DNA of 64,000 nt from an uncultured Planctomycetota bacterium (GTDB lineage Bacteria; Planctomycetota; Phycisphaerae; Sedimentisphaerales; UBA12454), in NCBI GenBank assembly GCA_903847315.1, contig CAINDG010000040.1:16813-80812 (forward strand), read 5' to 3'. The position numbers and the translations under genes are program-made. The notes under the pieces were generated by a model. It was not told the origin of the DNA. It saw only the letters and a list, made by a program, of their open reading frames with translations, and made no database searches. Below, in pieces: positions 1-11,528 of the stretch; positions within the stretch are counted from its first letter, which is position 1; each line of letters begins with the position of its first letter.

Positions 1-993
1 GGGGCAAGGTATGGGTATTTGATGCCGAGCCATCTTGGCCTTTTCTATCATAATTGTACATGTGGCGCAAGACTACCTGCGGCGAGATTTCTTCGAGACA
101 AAGTTAAGAAGGATGGTAATCGAGTTGAAACAACTTTGAAAAAGATATGTCCAAAAGGTCATCCATGGGGCATTGGCAGCGATGCTTTACTTAGTCACTT
201 TATTTGTGTTGTGGGTGGAATATCGGCGGGAAAAACTTGCTTCATGACAATGGCGGTACAGGGTCTCATAGATAACGGTTCACGATGCGAGATAGTAGCC
301 CAGGGCACAAAACATAGTGATAGATATAAGATTCTTAAACAGGGTCTTTTATTGCCAGCAACTCAGCGAGGAACAGTACCTGAGGCTATCGTGTTGCGTT
401 TGTCCGGAAACAAGAAGAAGGAGTTGCGACTGTATTTCTACGATCCTGCCGGAGAGGATGTCAGTCGTGTAGAGCGGGGTACAAAAGAAGATTTCGTTTT
501 TTTTCAGGATTTAACAGGGGTGATATTACTTGTCGATCCACTTGGATTACCGAAGCTGCGTCAAGATATCAGTGGCAAGTACAACTCATCGTTAGAAGCA
601 GCCAAGATGTCAGAGACGCCTTTGGAAGATGTTGTTGCGAGCCTTAGCAGAAACGTTAGGAAATTTCTCAAGTGTGGACGAAGCGGTAGAGTAACTATAC
701 CACTGGCAGTAGTTATAAATAAGACGGATGTTTCTGAAATCAGCGAGAGAGTTGGAACGGATATTGTTCAAAAAACTAGGGGCGAAACAGCAGAACATGT
801 CCTTTGTCGAAAGGCACTGCTGGATTGGGGAGCGAGAAGCGAAATTAGTGCTCTTGAACAAGAGTTCACGTTCATTCGTTACTTCTCATGCTCGACACTA
901 GGGCGTATTCCTGATGATAGTAAGAATCCTTTCATAGCCGATCGTGTTCTTCAGCCCTTAGAATGGTTGATAAACTTGGATAGAGAAAGATGA
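1..993 (+). CDS. TRAFAC-like GTPase with N-terminal zinc ribbon (frame open to the window edge, may be 5'-partial)
   Basis: ORF 19..993; CxC...CPKGH zinc-ribbon-like start, Walker A GGISAGKT, DPAG Walker B/G3, NKTD G4, SCST G5-like. The frame stays open upstream of the TTG/ATG at 19/22 to base 1. Confidence 0.8.
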   Translation, partial: GARYGYLMPSHLGLFYHNCTCGARLPAARFLRDKVKKDGNRVETTLKKICPKGHPWGIGSDALLSHFICVVGGISAGKTCFMTMAVQGLIDNGSRCEIVAQGTKHSDRYKILKQGLLLPATQRGTVPEAIVLRLSGNKKKELRLYFYDPAGEDVSRVERGTKEDFVFFQDLTGVILLVDPLGLPKLRQDISGKYNSSLEAAKMSETPLEDVVASLSRNVRKFLKCGRSGRVTIPLAVVINKTDVSEISERVGTDIVQKTRGETAEHVLCRKALLDWGARSEISALEQEFTFIRYFSCSTLGRIPDDSKNPFIADRVLQPLEWLINLDRER

Positions 994-1111
994 TGAAGTA
1001 ATACTCTTCGCTGTCATTAGACCATAATATTACTCGAATGGAAAAGACATACTGTAAAAAATAGCATATTGGTAACATGAGGTATGAAAAAATAGAGAAA
1101 GATTAAAGTAT

Positions 1112-2005
1112 ATGGCAAAAGGGAAGAAGAATCAAAAAGTTGACAGGGCTTATGTGCCCACTAATCCTCCTATTTTAGGGAGTGGTGGTTTCACAACAGC
1201 CCCTCTATCTGCAATTTTGAACGGTTTTCGCGATACGATAGATAGGCTCAAGTCGGAGCCAAAGGATGAAACTTTCAGTGGGGCAGGATTGCGTGGAATT
1301 TTAGCGGCCGTAGAGGCGGTAAAGAATGGTGACATTGATGGTGCGATAGATGTTCTCCGAGAAAGTAAGAGAAAAATAGAGTCAGCAAGAAAGAAATCTC
1401 TGATATTCTTGGTCAAGAATTTCCTTCACCGCCGTAGAAGCACTATTTTTCTTGAATCCATACTCTCGAGTTTGTTGGACGTCCGTGCAGTTCGGACGGC
1501 TAATCAAGCGTTAGAATCTTTCGAGAAGAGCAAGCCATCAGAGGATACAATAGGCCGTCTACGGAAAATGGCAGAGAAAGACGTTTATAAGAGTCACAAA
1601 TACTCTGATGATGACATTATTCCTTATGCAATATCAGATCCAAACTTGCGGCGCATCTTGTCGTCAAATCCAGATCTTCGGTATACGTTGCGAGGTCGGC
1701 TTTCCGATATGGGAATAGATATGCCCAATCTTGGCCCTTGCGCCGTTTGCAAAAAGCTCTCAGTGGGCGAGATGAGAAACAGCGATGGTAAATCATGGAA
1801 ACTCTGTCCTTGGTGCGCCCAAAATGCCAAAGAATTGATTGGCGAACAGAGGGAGAGGGTTAATAGTCTTTTAAATTCACTCAGAGAAAGCAGGCAGGAT
1901 CTGGTGGAGGCGGTGGCACTTGACGGGAAGAATAATAAACCTGCTCAGAAAAATTTAGACGAGTGTAACAAGATACTAAGCCAACTGGAACCACATACGA
2001 CTTGA
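1112..2005 (+). CDS. Charged/helical protein with C-terminal zinc ribbon (CAVCKK...LCPWC), GTPase-linked
   Basis: ORF 297 aa, two CxxC pairs, immediately downstream of the GTPase on the same strand. Confidence 0.7.
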   Translation: MAKGKKNQKVDRAYVPTNPPILGSGGFTTAPLSAILNGFRDTIDRLKSEPKDETFSGAGLRGILAAVEAVKNGDIDGAIDVLRESKRKIESARKKSLIFLVKNFLHRRRSTIFLESILSSLLDVRAVRTANQALESFEKSKPSEDTIGRLRKMAEKDVYKSHKYSDDDIIPYAISDPNLRRILSSNPDLRYTLRGRLSDMGIDMPNLGPCAVCKKLSVGEMRNSDGKSWKLCPWCAQNAKELIGEQRERVNSLLNSLRESRQDLVEAVALDGKNNKPAQKNLDECNKILSQLEPHTT

Positions 2006-2057
2006 CAAAAGAGGCGCATTTTGAATCGCTGGGTAAGCACAAATAGGAGTTAGCGAT

Positions 2058-4064
2058 ATGACAAAAGAGTACAGTACTTTCAACTATCCGCTTTGGTTAA
2101 CAGGCATTTGGATGCCAGAAATCCAGATAATCTCTGTATTGGTTGGAATAGCTATTTTGATTGCAGGAGCATGTGTCCTTTGGCTTCGACAATTGGGTTT
2201 GTGGATAGCAGTATTTTTTTTAGGTGTTTCTGCGGTTGTTCTGGTGACACCCATGATTGGAAAGATGGCCCATTATATGTCTATAGCCGACCATTTCCCC
2301 TTTGGAAATACGATAGAACCGCGTGTCATGTTTAGCAATCTGCCCCAAGCAATCATATTGTTGTTCTGCAATATTGCGGGGCCAGTTTTATGTCTGTGGT
2401 TAATGAGGCCAGAGGATTCTATTCTTATTAGATTGGTGCGCATTATTTCGATAGAATTTATTGTTCTCATACTATCAATGGTTATCGGCGGAGCAATTGC
2501 ATGTTCTCACGCTGAGGGGAGAAAAGGAATTGAATCCATACGTCGCATGCTACATCTAGTATTTTGTCAGAGGGGGCATTTTTCTCGCGCAGCAGTATAT
2601 GGTCTTCCACTGTGCTTAGTATTATTCTCCGTAGATATGGCGGTGCTTTTCGGCGCCGCGGTTCTTCCGTTTCTCATTTCTCATTATGCTTTGTCATTCT
2701 GGTTCTTGGTTCTCAGTCCGGTGACATCACTTTTAGTGCGGATTGTCAGGGTTGTAGGACTCATTATTGTTGGCCTATTGTTGGCTATCTTGCTGTTTTT
2801 GTCGATTCAAAAGCCGAAAGAATTCGAACTTAATCTCAATCTCAGATGGCGTTTAGCTCTTGTTGTAGGGCTTTTTTCCACAGTTTGGGTTTTCTGGGTA
2901 ATGCCGTTGCTGTGTAGTTACTCATCTTTTCCTAATCAGTCTCCATTTGTCAACTGGCTGGCGTATTTGAAAATGACTGCGCCGGTCCCTGTTCCCATAG
3001 CTCTGGGGCTTGGTTTTGTTTATGTTGGTATCTTGTGGTTTTTGGCTAAATGGATGGGTAAGTGGTTTTTCCTCTACCCCTTAGCGTACGGAGTCTTTAC
3101 TTTTTTCCATCTACGGCAAGAAGCAGAGGGAACACCTCATCGTTCTCCTTCTGATCCAACAGTTGCTACCCGACGGTCGAGTTTGTCAGGGCTCGGCGGT
3201 AACCTCTTTAAGACGGGAAGTATCCCCAGTGTTCTGCATGACATACGTCCCCCACGAGGATGGGCTCCATTATTATGGATACCTATTGCTCCATGGACTT
3301 ATCTACCCTCATGTATCTTGGTCATAGCGATGATGTTTTGTAATTATCCAGTCACGAGTCTGCATGGTATATGGCGTGTGTTTTGGCTATGTACATCGAG
3401 CCTAACACTCGCTATCGTGTTCTTTCCGATTATCAGCAGATCTGTGATTCGGTATCTTTTAGGTAATGAAGAAGGTGGTTTATTGACAGGCTATTTGGTG
3501 CGCCGTACGGCTGTCATTTTGCTGACATATATTGCGATTTTATTTATCTTTCCAGTTATCATTGCGATTGGTGGCTCGCTGGCTATGGTCCCAATCATAG
3601 GATCGGTTCTATGGGCGGTGCTATACGCCATTTATCTTATTCCATGTGGACAACTTGTAGCGCAGGCACTTCTTTTCTTGCCTTTAGGTATGTTGATGTT
3701 GCCACCAATGGTTGCGAATAAAACGGATGCCAAGTATAAGTTTTGGGAACAGGTGGAACGGCTGGGTAAATACATTGACGAATTAACGGGTCCTTTCCTT
3801 GGCGTTGCATTATGTGGACTTTTTGTTTCCGGAACGGTGACAGCGGTCTCAGTAACAAGTTTATTTCTCATTTCGCAGTTTTATATCGGTGGACATAGTA
3901 CCGGATGGTATAGTGCTTTTTGTAGCGTGCTGGGTGTTATACCGTTCTTTTCGTTGTCGCCACTGCATTTGATTGTAGTTATTGGTGTTTGCGGTCTCTG
4001 TATAAGTGCTTTCAATACTGCTATTACAAATGCCTATTTGACTGTACGTGGATTAATCAAGTAA
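2058..4064 (+). CDS. Large polytopic membrane protein
   Basis: ORF 668 aa with many long hydrophobic segments; 52 bp after the previous gene. Confidence 0.75.
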   Translation: MTKEYSTFNYPLWLTGIWMPEIQIISVLVGIAILIAGACVLWLRQLGLWIAVFFLGVSAVVLVTPMIGKMAHYMSIADHFPFGNTIEPRVMFSNLPQAIILLFCNIAGPVLCLWLMRPEDSILIRLVRIISIEFIVLILSMVIGGAIACSHAEGRKGIESIRRMLHLVFCQRGHFSRAAVYGLPLCLVLFSVDMAVLFGAAVLPFLISHYALSFWFLVLSPVTSLLVRIVRVVGLIIVGLLLAILLFLSIQKPKEFELNLNLRWRLALVVGLFSTVWVFWVMPLLCSYSSFPNQSPFVNWLAYLKMTAPVPVPIALGLGFVYVGILWFLAKWMGKWFFLYPLAYGVFTFFHLRQEAEGTPHRSPSDPTVATRRSSLSGLGGNLFKTGSIPSVLHDIRPPRGWAPLLWIPIAPWTYLPSCILVIAMMFCNYPVTSLHGIWRVFWLCTSSLTLAIVFFPIISRSVIRYLLGNEEGGLLTGYLVRRTAVILLTYIAILFIFPVIIAIGGSLAMVPIIGSVLWAVLYAIYLIPCGQLVAQALLFLPLGMLMLPPMVANKTDAKYKFWEQVERLGKYIDELTGPFLGVALCGLFVSGTVTAVSVTSLFLISQFYIGGHSTGWYSAFCSVLGVIPFFSLSPLHLIVVIGVCGLCISAFNTAITNAYLTVRGLIK

Positions 4065-4103
4065 GATAAAACTAATTAACCTTTTTAAAGAGAAAATTGA
4101 ACG

Positions 4104-5417
4104 ATGAAAGGCGACTATTTCCCTAAGGTTCGTTATCGTTTTGAGAGATATCCTATACTTTCAGAAGGTCATTTTGAACAATTTGCGCAAACTGCTAAAT
4201 ACCTGATTCAAAACTTGCCATTGGCAACACCAAATCTTTCATTTGGGTCAGCTGCATGTGTAAGTTCAGGAGTATTGGAATCTAATTATAGGCAGTCTCC
4301 AAACAAAGAAGTAATAAAACTTAAAGCTATAGAATCATCCGATGGCGTGCTTTTGGAACATTCCTACGATTCAGCCGGTCGTCTATTAAAGACTATTTAC
4401 CCGGATAACGTGTATTTAAGATATGATTGGGGGAGTAATAACCAGTTAACAACCGTACATTTATCCAACGGGCAAAATATTACCTATAATTATCGAGAGG
4501 ATGGTTTGTTGGATAAAGTAATATATCCTGGCGGTCTTCAATTCCGTTATGAATACACAATCGATGGAAGGTTGCTCAAATGCGTATATCCCGATCATAG
4601 GTGTGTTGCTCGTACATACGATCACCGAAACCAGCTTATTGAGGTGATATACGCCAATTCTAAATATACTTATGAATGGGGTGATTATGGATCGCTCAAA
4701 GGGGTGGCTTTTAGAAGCCATGGCCGAGTTTGTGAACTTCCATTAAATAAGGATAGACTAAACATTAGTTTATTACCAAATAACAGTAGTGGAGCAGCGG
4801 GAACGGAAATAGAATCCAGCCTTGGTGTATGGATGTATTCGTCCGAAGGATTTTTGCGTGAAATGACATTGCCTGATGGAGAACTACTTTGTAATAATTC
4901 TTCAACCTATGGTATCCCAAAGACTTTTTGGAGTTCTCTGGGGCAAACAGTGTATGAATACGACAGAAACAATGTTTTGTCTGCAGTTCTTTATCCAAAT
5001 GGTATGCGGTCTGTATATCATCATATACCTAAGACTCGTATTGTATATCTTGTGAGTACCAATGGTGTGGCTCTTTATCAGTATGATCGCGATGGAAAGC
5101 TGCGAGAAATTAGGGCTGACAATGGACAATATGTGTTATTTAACTATAATCGTCATGATATGGTTAAAAAAGTAGCGACTGCCCAAGGAGCAATGCAGTT
5201 TCGCTATAATGGCAGCAAATTAACGCGAATTGTATTCTCGACAGGCGTGTCTGCTGACCTCTCATATGAAGTTGCAGGTTGTCCAAATGCTATTAGACTG
5301 CAAAAGATAGCGAAATATCCATTAGCGGCTATAGTAGCGTTTGGAAATACATTGTGGCAGTGGACTGCTTTGAAACCGTCTCTTCGTCTCGAAGACAAAA
5401 AAATGCGGGAGGTATAA
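4104..5417 (+). CDS. YD-repeat (RHS-like) protein
   Basis: Repeated motifs such as HSYDSAGRLLKTIYPDN, YNYREDGLLDKVIYPGG, YEYTIDGRLLKCVYPD, YDHRNQLIEVIY, YQYDRDGKLREI. Confidence 0.85.
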   Translation: MKGDYFPKVRYRFERYPILSEGHFEQFAQTAKYLIQNLPLATPNLSFGSAACVSSGVLESNYRQSPNKEVIKLKAIESSDGVLLEHSYDSAGRLLKTIYPDNVYLRYDWGSNNQLTTVHLSNGQNITYNYREDGLLDKVIYPGGLQFRYEYTIDGRLLKCVYPDHRCVARTYDHRNQLIEVIYANSKYTYEWGDYGSLKGVAFRSHGRVCELPLNKDRLNISLLPNNSSGAAGTEIESSLGVWMYSSEGFLREMTLPDGELLCNNSSTYGIPKTFWSSLGQTVYEYDRNNVLSAVLYPNGMRSVYHHIPKTRIVYLVSTNGVALYQYDRDGKLREIRADNGQYVLFNYNRHDMVKKVATAQGAMQFRYNGSKLTRIVFSTGVSADLSYEVAGCPNAIRLQKIAKYPLAAIVAFGNTLWQWTALKPSLRLEDKKMREV

Positions 5418-5418
5418 T

Positions 5419-8400
5419 ATGGGTTGGCTGGGTAATGCTTTAAATTGGGTGGGTCAGACATTTAATCCGATTACTGCCAATCAGTGGTATGCACAGCGGT
5501 CAGCGATGAACTGGCAGAGCGGGAACCTAATAGGAAAAGCACTGGCGATTACCCAGGACTCTATTGGTGGATACGTCGCGGCATGGACGGGGCAGTCAGC
5601 GTCGACCGCACAGGCTTGGTGGTCCCTCCCATGGACAGCAACCACCTTCTTCGTCGGCGGGCAGGCTGGCACCTTCTTTAAAACCTTAAATATGTGGCAA
5701 GGCGTTTCAACAGGTTTGTGCACCTCGGCGAACGCCCTTAGCGGTGGGGCAGCAGTCAATCCTATCAGCGGCGCGTTTCAGATAGCTGGCCTTGGAGGTA
5801 GTTTACTGGGCGAAATTGCCAAGCCTCTCATGCAGGCCACCGGTCCGGTGGGTAATTCGCAATATATGTGGAACTTATCGCACCTCCCGGGTACGACCAT
5901 TGAGTCGCAGTTGGGGTGGAACTTTGCGACAATACACAAGGGAGTTGGGCTTAGCAATATCGGACATGTGGCAGACGCGTTCTCATTTGGCGGCAGTGTC
6001 GGCGACACGCTGAATCGATCCATTCCTAACGTTGGCGGAATTCTTTTCGAGAACTGTGATGCGGTTCTTACGAACGTTGGAGAAATTACAGGCGCTTACT
6101 GGGATGACCAAAACGCATCGCTTGTGCTTGTGGGCAAAGATGGTACAAAAGATCGCCCAACCACGATCCAATTGCCTGGCATGGATAGAGAACTTTTGAA
6201 TATTGCTCTAAGAGCTTCACTTGCAGGTCAGCCAATTGGTGTTAGTATTGATCCACCTTTTAAATACCGTGAAAGTATAAAACAAGGGGTGAATCCGCCG
6301 GATGGAACATCCATGCTGGTTAGTTATCTTGGAAATACGGAGGGGACGCTATTTGGTGCTATCATGTTCGAAGCGGACAGGCTTCTGAAATGCCTGGACA
6401 AGGGAGTACATAACGAGACAAAGAAGGCGGTTCGAGCAACGGTTCCCGGCTTCAAGACGCTGTTAGAGATGATTAAACCGAGTAATATACAGGGGAGCAA
6501 TGTCTGGCACAGATTTTGGTTTGTCATAGACAAAGTGGAGATCAAGCACGATTCAAGTTCTAATGCTATCGCGTTTGCAGACGTGCGGCTAAAAGTTCTT
6601 ACCGAAACAGAAATGAGCGGTCCATCCGCAAATAAATACATTGATTCAGCCGATGAGGCTTTTGTCCAGCATTTGACCAGACACTATGATGAATATGCGA
6701 AAGATTTCCCGATTTTAGCCAGACTTAAAGAATTAGCAAAGATAACCGCTATTGCAAAGTTCCTCGTCAACAGGAAAATACCTATAGATACTCATTTTCT
6801 TTTTACGTCGCGTCCAACACAAGTTGACACCCCATCTACAACCCCTGGGATCTCAGTAACAAGCCCAAATGTTGAAGTGAGTCAGAAGGGAAATGTGATT
6901 CATACACGCACTGTGTCTCTTTTTGGAGGTGTTGACATGGACGCCGAACCTCAGATATTATCTGATGTTGGCAAGAGTGCCTATCAGCTCAGGCAAATTG
7001 CAGAAGCCGCACGTCCGAGTAGAAGTTCTTCTGCATGGACCTTCCGAAAAAATGGAACTATGGGGAAAGCTTTGGCCGCTAAATTAGGTTCAGGCGGTGC
7101 TCCGTTTCGGAAAATTTGCATTGATCATCATTTTGCATTAAGTGACAAAGACAGGTTGTTAAGTATTCAAAGAGTTTACAATTCAAATAATACATCAATC
7201 GGCGATTTTGGTCCTAGTTGGTTGCTTTGGGTTCCATTTTCAATCACAGTTGTACCCCATAATGACAAGCGGGCGGAGGTGTTGCCTTGTGAAGACGTCA
7301 ATAGACATAGTGCCTTTGCTCTGTTGATTTTGCATGACCACACATCTGCGGGATCGAGTATGTATAGACCAGTTGATAACTCGTCACGTCCTACGGTGTT
7401 TTGTAAAATTACTTCGCAGGTGTTAAACCATGGGCAAATCTCATTTCAGTACAATCCATCAGATTGTATCCGGGCAGAGAAAAACTGTTTCATCGTGGAA
7501 AAAGATGGGTTTCACTACTATTTCGATTCACATGGATGCCTCCAGGAAATTCATAAGGGGCAATCCTGTGTCGTCCGGTATCATCGAGAAAATCAGCGTA
7601 TTAAACGTATAATAGACAACCTGAATCATTTCTATGATATTCAATATCATCAAGGTCGGATTATTGAAATTGCCTCGACAGATAAAACTGTTATTCACTA
7701 CTTGTATAACCCATCGGGATTCTTAGTGTCCTGTAGAATAGGCAATAAATGCATTGAAAGTTATTCCTATGACGTTCAAGGACGCATAACTGAAATCAGA
7801 GACCACTTAGACCAAGTAATTTGTCGGAATGTATATAATAATTTTGGTGAAGTGATAAAAGAGCGTTCTGATGTTGTGATAGAAGCATCGGGTGCAAAAG
7901 TGTATAGATTATTCGAACAAGGCAGGCTTGTATCGGCTAAAGATGAAGCAGGAGGCACGCTGTGTCTTAAATACGGGAGGCAGGGCGAATTGTCGATGGC
8001 TGAAGTTAAGGATCATAGTGGCCGAGCGAGCCAACTGACATACGATTTAAACGGAAAATTAATTTGCCTCAAAGAATCCACAGGCCGAGGGATATATCTG
8101 GATTATGACAAGTTTGGTAGGGTTATTCAATGCACCGGCCCAGACAGGCAATCAAGAAATTTTCAGTTGGATGACAAGGGACGGGTGTTTTGTATTACAG
8201 ATCAAGATGCAGGCCGATGGTCGGTTGAGTACGATAACGTCGGCAATATACAAAACATTACTGATCCTGCAGGCAGACAATCAAGTTATAAGTATGTCGG
8301 AGAAATGCCAGTGAGTGTTTGCGATCCCACTGGAGAGATAAAGGTTAAACCCAGAAAATATACCCTCGAAATTCAAACCAAGGTATCGAATCGACTGCAA

Positions 8401-8583
8401 CAGAGTATGGTGTATGACCGTAACCAACGATTGACGCGGTATAAAACGCGTAAGGGTAGACCTATACGGTTTTATTATGACGAGTTTGGTAACCTTAAGA
8501 CAATTTGTAATAAAGTCGGGACTACACAATATCAAATTAACGAGAAAGATATGATACTTACAATCATGTTTGGAAAACATTAA
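5419..8583 (+). CDS. RHS/YD-repeat protein with Gly/Trp-rich hydrophobic N-terminus
   Basis: 1054 aa; RHS-entry-like YNSNNTSIGDFGPSWLLW followed by many YD repeats; starts 1 bp after the previous stop. Confidence 0.85.
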   Translation: MGWLGNALNWVGQTFNPITANQWYAQRSAMNWQSGNLIGKALAITQDSIGGYVAAWTGQSASTAQAWWSLPWTATTFFVGGQAGTFFKTLNMWQGVSTGLCTSANALSGGAAVNPISGAFQIAGLGGSLLGEIAKPLMQATGPVGNSQYMWNLSHLPGTTIESQLGWNFATIHKGVGLSNIGHVADAFSFGGSVGDTLNRSIPNVGGILFENCDAVLTNVGEITGAYWDDQNASLVLVGKDGTKDRPTTIQLPGMDRELLNIALRASLAGQPIGVSIDPPFKYRESIKQGVNPPDGTSMLVSYLGNTEGTLFGAIMFEADRLLKCLDKGVHNETKKAVRATVPGFKTLLEMIKPSNIQGSNVWHRFWFVIDKVEIKHDSSSNAIAFADVRLKVLTETEMSGPSANKYIDSADEAFVQHLTRHYDEYAKDFPILARLKELAKITAIAKFLVNRKIPIDTHFLFTSRPTQVDTPSTTPGISVTSPNVEVSQKGNVIHTRTVSLFGGVDMDAEPQILSDVGKSAYQLRQIAEAARPSRSSSAWTFRKNGTMGKALAAKLGSGGAPFRKICIDHHFALSDKDRLLSIQRVYNSNNTSIGDFGPSWLLWVPFSITVVPHNDKRAEVLPCEDVNRHSAFALLILHDHTSAGSSMYRPVDNSSRPTVFCKITSQVLNHGQISFQYNPSDCIRAEKNCFIVEKDGFHYYFDSHGCLQEIHKGQSCVVRYHRENQRIKRIIDNLNHFYDIQYHQGRIIEIASTDKTVIHYLYNPSGFLVSCRIGNKCIESYSYDVQGRITEIRDHLDQVICRNVYNNFGEVIKERSDVVIEASGAKVYRLFEQGRLVSAKDEAGGTLCLKYGRQGELSMAEVKDHSGRASQLTYDLNGKLICLKESTGRGIYLDYDKFGRVIQCTGPDRQSRNFQLDDKGRVFCITDQDAGRWSVEYDNVGNIQNITDPAGRQSSYKYVGEMPVSVCDPTGEIKVKPRKYTLEIQTKVSNRLQQSMVYDRNQRLTRYKTRKGRPIRFYYDEFGNLKTICNKVGTTQYQINEKDMILTIMFGKH

Positions 8584-8700
8584 TTATAAAGTGCAAATAT
8601 TAAATTCTTGTTCCTTAAAAAGTTAACTCTCAGTTTTTCGTCACTTATATAATCTCCTACCGTAGCATCTTCATTCCGCAAATAGTTACAAAACTCTCAA

Positions 8701-8746
8701 TCGGGCTGTCGATCCGAAGGATGAGGGTTCAAGCCTCTTCGACAGA
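8701..8746 (+). other. tRNA-Asp-like 3' half (anticodon stem-loop, variable loop, T-arm), no recognisable 5' half
   Basis: TCGGG-CTGTCGA-TCCGA anticodon arm (anticodon GTC), AGGAT variable loop, GAGGG-TTCAAGC-CTCTT T-arm; no D-arm or acceptor match upstream. Confidence 0.55.
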
Positions 8747-8762
8747 TGAGTTATTGATGTTT

Positions 8763-8796
8763 TTCTACTGTCACGTATTTGACAGTAGAATTTTTG
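8763..8796 (+). terminator. Rho-independent terminator after the tRNA-Asp-like fragment
   Basis: Perfect 11 bp stem TTCTACTGTCA/TGACAGTAGAA followed by TTTTT. Confidence 0.8.
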
Positions 8797-9050
8797 TAGT
8801 CCAAATGGCGTCTAAGCTCAACCTGCAACTAACCTGAAACTATTATGAGGTTATTCTGACCTTTCCGAAAATCATTTTGAGGACAGTTTAAGGGCAATGG
8901 GGCAGTCAAAAATAGTAATATTTTCACAACACCTTATTTTGTAAACAGTTGTGTACTGTTATGTTTTTACACACGGAGAGGCCAACCCTCTCTTTGTATT
9001 TTGCTGTAACTGATTTACTGAAAATGAGCTATGAAGTGATATAAAAATAA

Positions 9051-9140
9051 CGGAGAGGGCGGGATTCGAACCCGCGGTACTCGGTAAAGAGCACACTGGT
9101 TTTCGAAACCAGCTCGATCAGCCGCTCCGACACCTCTCCG
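9051..9140 (-). tRNA. tRNA-Ser(CGA)
   Basis: Reverse strand CGGAGAGGTG...CTGGT-TTCGAAA-ACCAG...GGTTCGAATCCCGCCCTCTCCG; long variable arm; acceptor pairs. Confidence 0.93.
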
Positions 9141-9626
9141 GAAGTTAAAAACTTAAAACTAAAAGCTCAAAACTTATAGAAGAAGCTATTTTAATCAAAT
9201 ATCCCAAAAACTCAAGTTTAATTGGTTAGTCCCGCCCCTATTTGTATTGTTCATAAGAATAGTAATAATGAGTTAGTTATGTAAATTACTTTGCGATTTA
9301 ATTGTGCACAACCACAGTACAAACAGGCGTTTGCTTGTTACGGCGGTCTGTCCGTCCGCAGAACTAAAGTATGAAGACGGATTGATTTTTGATATTGGGG
9401 CGCACAAATCCTTCCGCTCAATTATAGTGCCTTATCATATTGTTTCTACTTTAGTGTTACGGTCTAACCTTTAGTCCTATAAAACTGTGTAATAAGCTCC
9501 AAGTCAGTGTTTGGCATTCGTACAAGTGTAAGTCCTGTTTGGGGTTAAGAGGAATAGAGATACGGCCGAATAGAATAATAGCGGTTTAACTCTATAGATA
9601 CTGCGCATTGTCCAGGGGTATTAAAA

Positions 9627-11528
9627 ATGCAGACCAATAATCGAAGAATAAAAGTGCCTGTCCTTATTCCGTTGGGGCTGGCAATTCTTGTTCTTTTGGT
9701 TTCTTCCATTCTTGGCGCATACCTGCTGGAGAGGCACAATTATATTGATGGGGTCAAGATAAAGGTTGAAGGAGCACAGTTGCTTTTCGATAGGCAGCTG
9801 GAGGAAGATTCGCGTACAATAAGCGGACTTCTTGACTTTATAGAGGAGAGAGGGGATTTGCAAAAAGCCTGGCTCGAAAAGAATCGCGACGCGCTGCTTG
9901 AATATTCATTACCGATTTTTAAAAATATCCATTCCCGGTATAAAGTGACCCACTTTTATTTTCTTGGACTGGACAGGACTTGCTTTTTGCGAGTTCATAA
10001 TCCTGCCAAATACGGGGATTTAATAGACAGATTTACCCTGAAGGCAGCGGTGAATCAAAATCAGCCGGTATGGGGTATTGAATTAGGAACTTTTGGCACC
10101 TTTACGCTGCGTGTTGTTCATCCATGGCTGATTGATGGAAAGCTGGTCGGTTATATTGAGATTGGCGAAGAAATTGAACATATTTTGCCGGTATTGAAGG
10201 ATGTTTTTAAAGTTGAGCTTTGTATTGGTATAGATAAGAAATATGTAACTCGCAGCGGCTGGGAAGAAGGCATGCGAATGATGGGACGGAATGACGCCGA
10301 CTGGGAGTTATTATCCAAAGAGGTGATAGTGGATTCCACATTTGCAAAGCTTTCAGATGAATCTTTACAAAATATAAAAAAGATTTTTGAGCAAAAGAGC
10401 AAGTCTTTGTTTGGCGCTGAGATCCAGGACCGTGATTATAAGGGCGGATTTGTACCGTTGATTGATGCCGGCAAACGCCATGTTGGCGACCTTGTTGTTA
10501 TGAAGGATGTTGCAGAGGCACAAGCAGCTCTTAAAACGTTTTCAATAATTCTGTCTACTGTCTGCATTATAGTCGGCATTTTATTGTGTGTGTTGTTTTA
10601 TACATATATCCGCCGTATAGAGTCTAAACTGACAAATGTATATATAGACCTTCAGAACCAGATAGAAAAGCGAAAGCAGACCGAGGGAAAATTGCAGGAG
10701 GCTTATGACCAGATGGAGCTTAAGGTTCAGGATCGTACCTCCCAGTTGCGGAAGCTTAACGAAAAACTGGAAACGACAGTTGCCAAATTAACCTCGGCCA
10801 ATCGGGAGCTTGAGCAGTTTGCTTTTGTCACTTCTCATCATTTACGCGAGCCTGTCAGAAAGATATCCCTGTTTGGAAAGATGCTGGCTGATTCTCTGTC
10901 GGGCAGGCTGAAAGATGATGAGCGTGAAAATCTTGATTTTATGATTGACGGCGCCGACAAGATATCGCTGATGGTAAAAGGCCTTAAACTTTATTTTGAA
11001 ACTTCGGTAGAAAAAATTAAATCTGAAGATATAGATTTGAATTTGGTTTTGGAGCAGATAAAGAGGATTGACCTGGCGGATGAACTTGGCCGGACAAACG
11101 GAACGATATTGATTCCTGAAAAATTGCCTGTGGTTAAAGGCTCTCCTACTCAGATTCGCCGGACGTTAGAGCATCTTATAGAGAATAGTTTAAAGTATCA
11201 CAGAAAGGATGTTCAGCCGGAAGTTATCATACGAGCGTATGAACAGGCCGATGAAATGGTTCGCATAGAAGTGGAAGATAATGGCATTGGTATCAAAGAG
11301 GATTATCTTAAAGATATTTTTGATCCCTTCAAGCGTCTGCACGTAGGAGGCGGTTATGAAGGTATCGGCATTGGCCTGACTATTTGCAAGATGGTTGTTG
11401 AAAGACATGGCGGCCGGATAGGTGTCCGGTCGGCTTACGGTCAGGGTACGACATTATGGTTTACATTGCCGCTCGCGACAGCCGCAGCGGCTCATGATTT
11501 TGCCCATTCTGATTCCGCAAATTTATAA
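9627..11528 (+). CDS. Membrane sensor histidine kinase with periplasmic Cache-like sensor
   Basis: Two TM segments flanking the sensor region, H-box SHHLREPVRKISLFGKML, ATPase motifs ENSLKY, EVEDNGIGI, GIGLTICKMVVERHGG. Confidence 0.9.
   Translation: MQTNNRRIKVPVLIPLGLAILVLLVSSILGAYLLERHNYIDGVKIKVEGAQLLFDRQLEEDSRTISGLLDFIEERGDLQKAWLEKNRDALLEYSLPIFKNIHSRYKVTHFYFLGLDRTCFLRVHNPAKYGDLIDRFTLKAAVNQNQPVWGIELGTFGTFTLRVVHPWLIDGKLVGYIEIGEEIEHILPVLKDVFKVELCIGIDKKYVTRSGWEEGMRMMGRNDADWELLSKEVIVDSTFAKLSDESLQNIKKIFEQKSKSLFGAEIQDRDYKGGFVPLIDAGKRHVGDLVVMKDVAEAQAALKTFSIILSTVCIIVGILLCVLFYTYIRRIESKLTNVYIDLQNQIEKRKQTEGKLQEAYDQMELKVQDRTSQLRKLNEKLETTVAKLTSANRELEQFAFVTSHHLREPVRKISLFGKMLADSLSGRLKDDERENLDFMIDGADKISLMVKGLKLYFETSVEKIKSEDIDLNLVLEQIKRIDLADELGRTNGTILIPEKLPVVKGSPTQIRRTLEHLIENSLKYHRKDVQPEVIIRAYEQADEMVRIEVEDNGIGIKEDYLKDIFDPFKRLHVGGGYEGIGIGLTICKMVVERHGGRIGVRSAYGQGTTLWFTLPLATAAAAHDFAHSDSANL

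Follow-up and report, generated by a model that had tools for sequence, protein, structure and literature searches.

A DO-GTPase operon with HSP70 and GrpE genes and a candidate four-gene tail in an uncultured planctomycete

A stretch of 64,000 nucleotides from an uncultured Planctomycetota bacterium (the window; assembly GCA_903847315.1, contig CAINDG010000040.1 or C40, C40:16813-80812 in a genome of 2.44 Mb and 54 contigs, with window position 1 at C40:16813) carries in its first 8,583 positions the downstream half of a ten-gene operon. We lean slightly towards reading this operon as a GAP1-N2-type DO-GTPase system of the HSP70/GrpE theme, extended by an undescribed four-gene tail and lying in a DNA segment whose codon usage is foreign. 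An earlier note on the window had described five same-strand open reading frames (ORFs) with gaps of 118, 52, 39 and 1 base pairs (bp), the first of them encoding a GTPase. This description holds, and the G1 (VGGISAGKT), G3 (DPAGED) and G4 (NKTD) motifs are all found in gene 1. The ORFs are real, but the unit is not one of five genes, as five further co-directional genes lie upstream on the contig. Likewise, gene 1 does encode a GTPase, but its ORF is open at the 5′ end, where the window edge cuts it, and the upstream contig sequence places its start 582 bp before window position 1.

All ten genes lie on one strand (plus) and are tightly spaced. The five upstream of the window encode an HSP70-vWA protein (742 amino acids (aa); C40:4058-6286; Pfam HSP70 at 9.5e-91 and VWA at 4.1e-8), GrpE (271 aa; C40:6319-7134; Pfam GrpE at 2.2e-9), a second HSP70 (558 aa; C40:7147-8823; Pfam HSP70 at 3.6e-55), a protein of FNIII-like repeats joined to a GTPase (1324 aa; C40:8848-12822), assigned by comparison with Actinomadura and Chloroflexota proteins, and a GAP1-N2/GAP1-M protein (1063 aa; C40:12832-16023; PF20013 (GAP1-N2) at 1.1e-16 and PF20014 (GAP1-M) at 1e-8). 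The sixth gene encodes a transmembrane (TM)-anchored zinc-ribbon DO-GTPase2 of 524 aa (C40:16231-17805), the 3′ two-thirds of which occupy window positions 1-993. It is followed by the tail: a 297-aa protein, predicted to be helical, with CxxC pairs and one zinc ribbon (1112-2005), a 668-aa polytopic membrane protein (2058-4064), a 437-aa YD-repeat protein (4104-5417) and a 1054-aa DUF1598-related/YD protein (5419-8583). A terminator-like hairpin of 11 pairs with a T run lies on the same strand 3′ of the last gene (8763-8790), and its stem is the longest among the terminator-like sites of window positions 1-9700.

The first six genes form a core that can be compared with a published class. GTPase-centric systems, predicted to be conflict systems, were defined by the combination of a DO-GTPase with GAP1 (Kaur et al., 2020, eLife, PMC7159879). 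The GAP1-N2 subtype includes an FNIII protein, one GTPase of the two-GTPase systems bears N-terminal TM helices, and HSP70 together with GrpE is found in about 14% of neighborhoods, some of which have a second HSP70 without the peptide-binding domain (PMC7159879). In the operon, the 524-aa protein matches DO-GTPase2 (PF19993) in Pfam at 8e-10 for the part inside the window and at 3.5e-9 for the near-complete protein, and its DPAGED motif has the Glu in Walker B by which DO-GTPases are recognized. It carries N-terminal hydrophobic segments and zinc-ribbon cysteines, as expected for the TM-anchored, zinc-ribbon member of a pair of paralogous GTPases. The other member is the 1324-aa protein, whose C-terminus matches the first DO-GTPase of the Actinomadura loci (best 1.1e-16). 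This protein has no Pfam match over the cut-off, its GTPase end included. The repeats align at 9.5e-9 with their counterpart in a Chloroflexota protein, and in that protein Pfam finds DO-GTPase2; neither of the two has a Pfam fn3 match. The GAP1 protein shows both the N2-type N-terminal and the middle domain, and the two HSP70 genes with GrpE correspond to the HSP70/GrpE theme. A fusion of the FNIII protein to DnaJ or TPR is typical of the theme and not obligatory in it; the 1324-aa protein shows no DnaJ or TPR match.

That the core belongs to the GAP1-N2-type DO-GTPase systems, in their HSP70/GrpE theme, is in our judgement almost certain; this and the degrees of confidence given below for tail membership and for the roles of the parts are judgements and not computed values. 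The earlier note had pointed to TRAFAC GTPases with zinc-ribbon and membrane partners in predicted conflict systems, a lead that proved right, and had recognized no named system, which now applies to the tail alone, as the core fits the published class. With the GAP1-N2 HSP70/GrpE systems the operon shares the DO-GTPase2 pair, the zinc ribbons, the TM-anchored GTPase, GAP1-N2 and GAP1-M, two HSP70s, GrpE and, on a weak assignment, FNIII-like repeats. Unlike the published theme, it has an HSP70-vWA fusion, a first GTPase and a repeat protein joined in one chain, no detected DnaJ/TPR fusion, four extra genes in a tail and a planctomycete host.

The core recurs in distant bacteria. GAP1-N2 was found in 36 of the 392 genomes sampled from Planctomycetota. 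BLAST in a set of 59 relatives and in 397 genomes from the same class gave no relative of this particular GAP1 outside its own genome, and plasmids and viral contigs yielded none either. The nearest that were found come from Candidatus Brocadia, a Chloroflexota metagenome-assembled genome (MAG), many Actinomadura and a Thiotrichaceae MAG. In Actinomadura, Chloroflexota and another planctomycete (G434), the core runs HSP70/GrpE, first GTPase, GAP1, TM-GTPase, as it does here; G434 also has the HSP70-vWA fusion, and the Thiotrichaceae locus reads GrpE, HSP70, GAP1, TM-GTPase. Conserved synteny of the GTPase, the 668-aa protein and YD-repeat genes had been proposed as support for a system. The core order is conserved across phyla, but no homologue of the 668-aa or YD proteins was detected in the 39 core loci compared.

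A related locus in Candidatus Brocadia sp. WS118 (L041/L094), cut by the contig end, encodes an HSP70-like protein, a 1168-aa protein with three AAA domains, a coiled-coil-like protein, a zinc-ribbon protein, a DO-GTPase and GAP1; it is possibly another variant of the HSP70/GrpE theme.

The four-gene tail, comprising the zinc-ribbon, the membrane and the two YD proteins, is the new part, because no homologue of the YD, 668-aa or 297-aa proteins is detectable at other core loci, and it is known so far from this one genome. Homologues of the 297-, 668-, 437- and 1054-aa proteins were not detected in these 39 core loci, and the planctomycete loci that were inspected likewise gave none for the 297-, 668- and 437-aa proteins. 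The 297-aa protein has its CxxC pairs at residues 210/213 and 232/235; its AlphaFold model is helical and of a confidence too low to be informative (pLDDT 51), and no relatives were found in viral contigs, plasmids or genome contigs. The 668-aa protein, with about 15 hydrophobic segments, yielded no family, structure or genome relative and none in viral contigs; a marginal match in one genome (G285, 9.4e-4) was judged spurious, as it falls in a non-membrane locus.

Both YD proteins exceed the Pfam RHS_repeat cut-off (7.9e-17 for the 437-aa and 1.3e-21 for the 1054-aa protein), bearing out the description in the earlier note, and they are the only proteins of the genome with YD matches over the cut-off. 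The 437-aa protein consists mostly of YD repeats. The 1054-aa protein comprises an N-terminal stretch, a DUF1598-related domain (aa about 220-556), a weak DUF6531 match and YD repeats. The DUF1598 model (PF07643) has no direct match in it, and residues 250-540 are homologous to proteins over the PF07643 cut-off. The full-length model is confident mainly at residues 220-556, and its fold matches are mainly YD-shell proteins with very low TM-scores, which do not inform the DUF1598 fold. No paper on DUF1598, a planctomycete domain, was found in the literature searched. Similar fusions of a DUF1598-related domain with DUF6531 or YD repeats occur in two other planctomycetes, G171 and G370 (L082:5954-8674, L083:3-2501 and L085:8397-12452). 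Unlike the DUF1598 proteins of planctomycetes, the 1054-aa protein has no evident signal peptide, leaves the Pfam model silent and sits in a DO-GTPase operon. One of the G171 fusion proteins starts with a signal-peptide-like stretch.

Does the pair of YD proteins form a toxin shell? The earlier note had suggested an RHS-type shell whose assembly or release would depend on a GTP-controlled membrane complex. Both sequence and local fold relate the YD stretches to the Rhs, Tc and teneurin shells, and the weak DUF6531-like start is another feature shared with RHS/YD polymorphic toxins. However, each YD protein aligns with only part of the solved shells of roughly 1000 residues, and the RHS core model NF041261 (1261 positions) is matched at 421-547 and 452-739 only, its C-terminal end not being reached. 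Family searches recognized no toxin domain at the C-terminus of either protein, no signal peptide, TM or PAAR-type N-terminus is evident in either, and the genome has no match to the type VI secretion system (T6SS) sheath (T6SS_VipA); Tc partners were not searched for. With no RHS core end, toxin or export signal, and repeats too few for a known shell, we reject the RHS toxin shell, which we consider very improbable. A related idea keeps the YD assembly inside the cell: the 437-aa and 1054-aa proteins would pair as a scaffold or partial shell under the control of the DO-GTPase/Hsp70 switch, and GTP hydrolysis would load it, open it or anchor it at the membrane protein, so that YD repeats would serve a purpose other than toxin export. 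This, too, we regard as quite improbable.

Two apparent associations of GAP1 with tail-like genes elsewhere were set aside. In G434, transposase-like genes stand between a giant RHS ORF and GAP1. In G430, G259, G377 and G382, all of one family, DUF1598 genes lie some 14 kb from GAP1, which probably reflects a shared ancestral order. The G434 genome has two giant ORFs with RHS-repeat matches, of about 12,600 and 12,100 aa (G434:C1 around 2522000 and 3328000).

Do the four tail genes work with the core? They could be unrelated island cargo that merely lies beside it, and the core loci without detectable tail homologues, together with the DUF1598-YD/DUF6531 fusions of G370 and G171, whose contigs yielded no GAP1 gene, would suit such an arrangement. 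Against it, the tail continues the core on the same strand with gaps of 118, 52, 39 and 1 bp, the strong terminator-like hairpin stands only 3′ of the last gene, and the codon usage of the tail is foreign like that of the core. With the rest of the window rather than the whole genome as reference, the synonymous codon usage of all twelve genes tested, from L002:458 (upstream on C40) to window position 8583, lies below that of every reference gene (z -3.1 to -5.9), whereas the downstream histidine kinase and RodA genes are typical (z -0.7 and 0.1). All ten operon genes share the foreign usage, which stops between the last tail gene and the native gene that comes next. The simplest reading is that the ten genes were acquired as one block, and the operon was probably imported. 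We consider unrelated cargo somewhat unlikely, and membership of the tail with the DO-GTPase core likely.

Taken as a whole, the reading of a DO-GTPase system with a new tail is favored because the core domains are found by Pfam, the same core order is kept in other phyla and the genes fit the published class definition, and also because of the tight same-strand spacing, the shared codon usage, the hairpin after the tail and the variable components, often with TM segments, that accompany GAP1-N2 cores (PMC7159879). Several points weigh against it. Promoters could lie in the 207 bp that precede the TM-GTPase gene or in the 118 bp that follow it; the FNIII assignment of the 1324-aa repeats is weak; the tail has been seen in a single genome, its link to the core resting on position and composition; and the literature searched holds no experimental function for any DO-GTPase system, the conflict or defense role being a prediction.

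The gene content, the family membership of the core, its conserved order in distant phyla and the foreign codon usage of all ten genes are established here; the mechanism that follows is inferred. Most likely, a known GTPase switch gets variable membrane parts and sensor or effector parts from the tail. GAP1 would coordinate a GTP-dependent switch made up of the two GTPases, of which one is membrane-anchored and the other carries the FNIII-like repeats. These repeats, and probably the DUF1598/YD proteins, might recognize a trigger located in the membrane or close to it, both offering recognition or scaffold surfaces. The HSP70s and GrpE would provide ATP-driven remodeling. The 297-aa zinc-ribbon protein could be the adaptor that joins the switch to the 668-aa protein, itself a putative membrane-side effector or signal relay. 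The output would be related to defense or envelope stress and not to RHS toxin export. These specific roles are tentative, and we hold them with less than even confidence. Alternatively, the operon may be a proteostasis unit for membrane proteins or envelope stress and not a conflict system, its HSP70/GrpE proteins and GTPases acting on membrane proteins of the host cell itself. In favor of this, HSP70 and GrpE belong to the chaperone machinery, no effector with a recognizable toxic enzyme domain was found, and a PSP study mentions a predicted role of the DO-GTPase family in membrane-related stresses (PMC11237479). However, patchy distribution and foreign codon usage suit mobile conflict systems better than housekeeping functions, and the published analysis places the family among conflict systems (PMC7159879); we consider a proteostasis unit unlikely.

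On the favored reading of a DO-GTPase system with its own tail, a predicted GTPase/chaperone immune-type system is now seen in a planctomycete, beyond the actinobacteria and firmicutes from which the HSP70 theme is mainly known (PMC7159879). The terms "RHS", "YD repeat" and "DUF1598" are absent from the main text of Kaur et al. (PMC7159879), and YD-repeat, DUF1598 and large membrane parts are here seen for the first time beside such a core, which also includes an HSP70-vWA fusion. Should the tail act together with the core, it would give DUF1598 its first functional context and open a route to asking what DO-GTPase systems sense and do.

The edges of the foreign block bear on its origin. Left of the operon, L002:458-3424, near the contig start, encodes two proteins, one with HEAT repeats and one that we take, without a search, to be of DUF1566 type. 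Both genes have foreign codon usage, so the island is larger than the operon, with its left end unseen. Neither was found in two genomes of the same genus (G006 and G003), in which the tRNA-Ser, ASCH and RodA genes keep the same order. On the right, codon usage shifts abruptly between 8583 and 9627. This shift, and the fact that the contigs of several relatives end at the tRNA-Ser match, could suggest that the left 25 kb of the contig was misjoined in assembly and that the operon comes from another organism. However, a tRNA-Asp 3′ fragment at this edge (8700-8746, plus strand), left of tRNA-Ser, has the variant ATCGGGCTG common to other fragments of this genome, and a misjoin, even if real, would leave the gene content of the operon unchanged; we regard it as improbable.

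The tRNA-Asp fragment is a possible integration scar. It was rejected as a proven att site, as such fragments are scattered in the genome and the intact tRNA-Asp (C44:2151-2226) lies among genes of mostly native codon usage; tRNA-Ser was rejected as an attachment site, no copy of its 3′ end being present in the initial 16.9 kb of the contig, a stretch that reaches just into the window. The fragments that resemble the tRNA-Asp 3′ half number at least six and are intergenic, at window positions 8700-8746, at C32:13026, 37724 and 45148, and at C21:16490 and 24726, and these may be integration scars or a tRNA-derived repeat.

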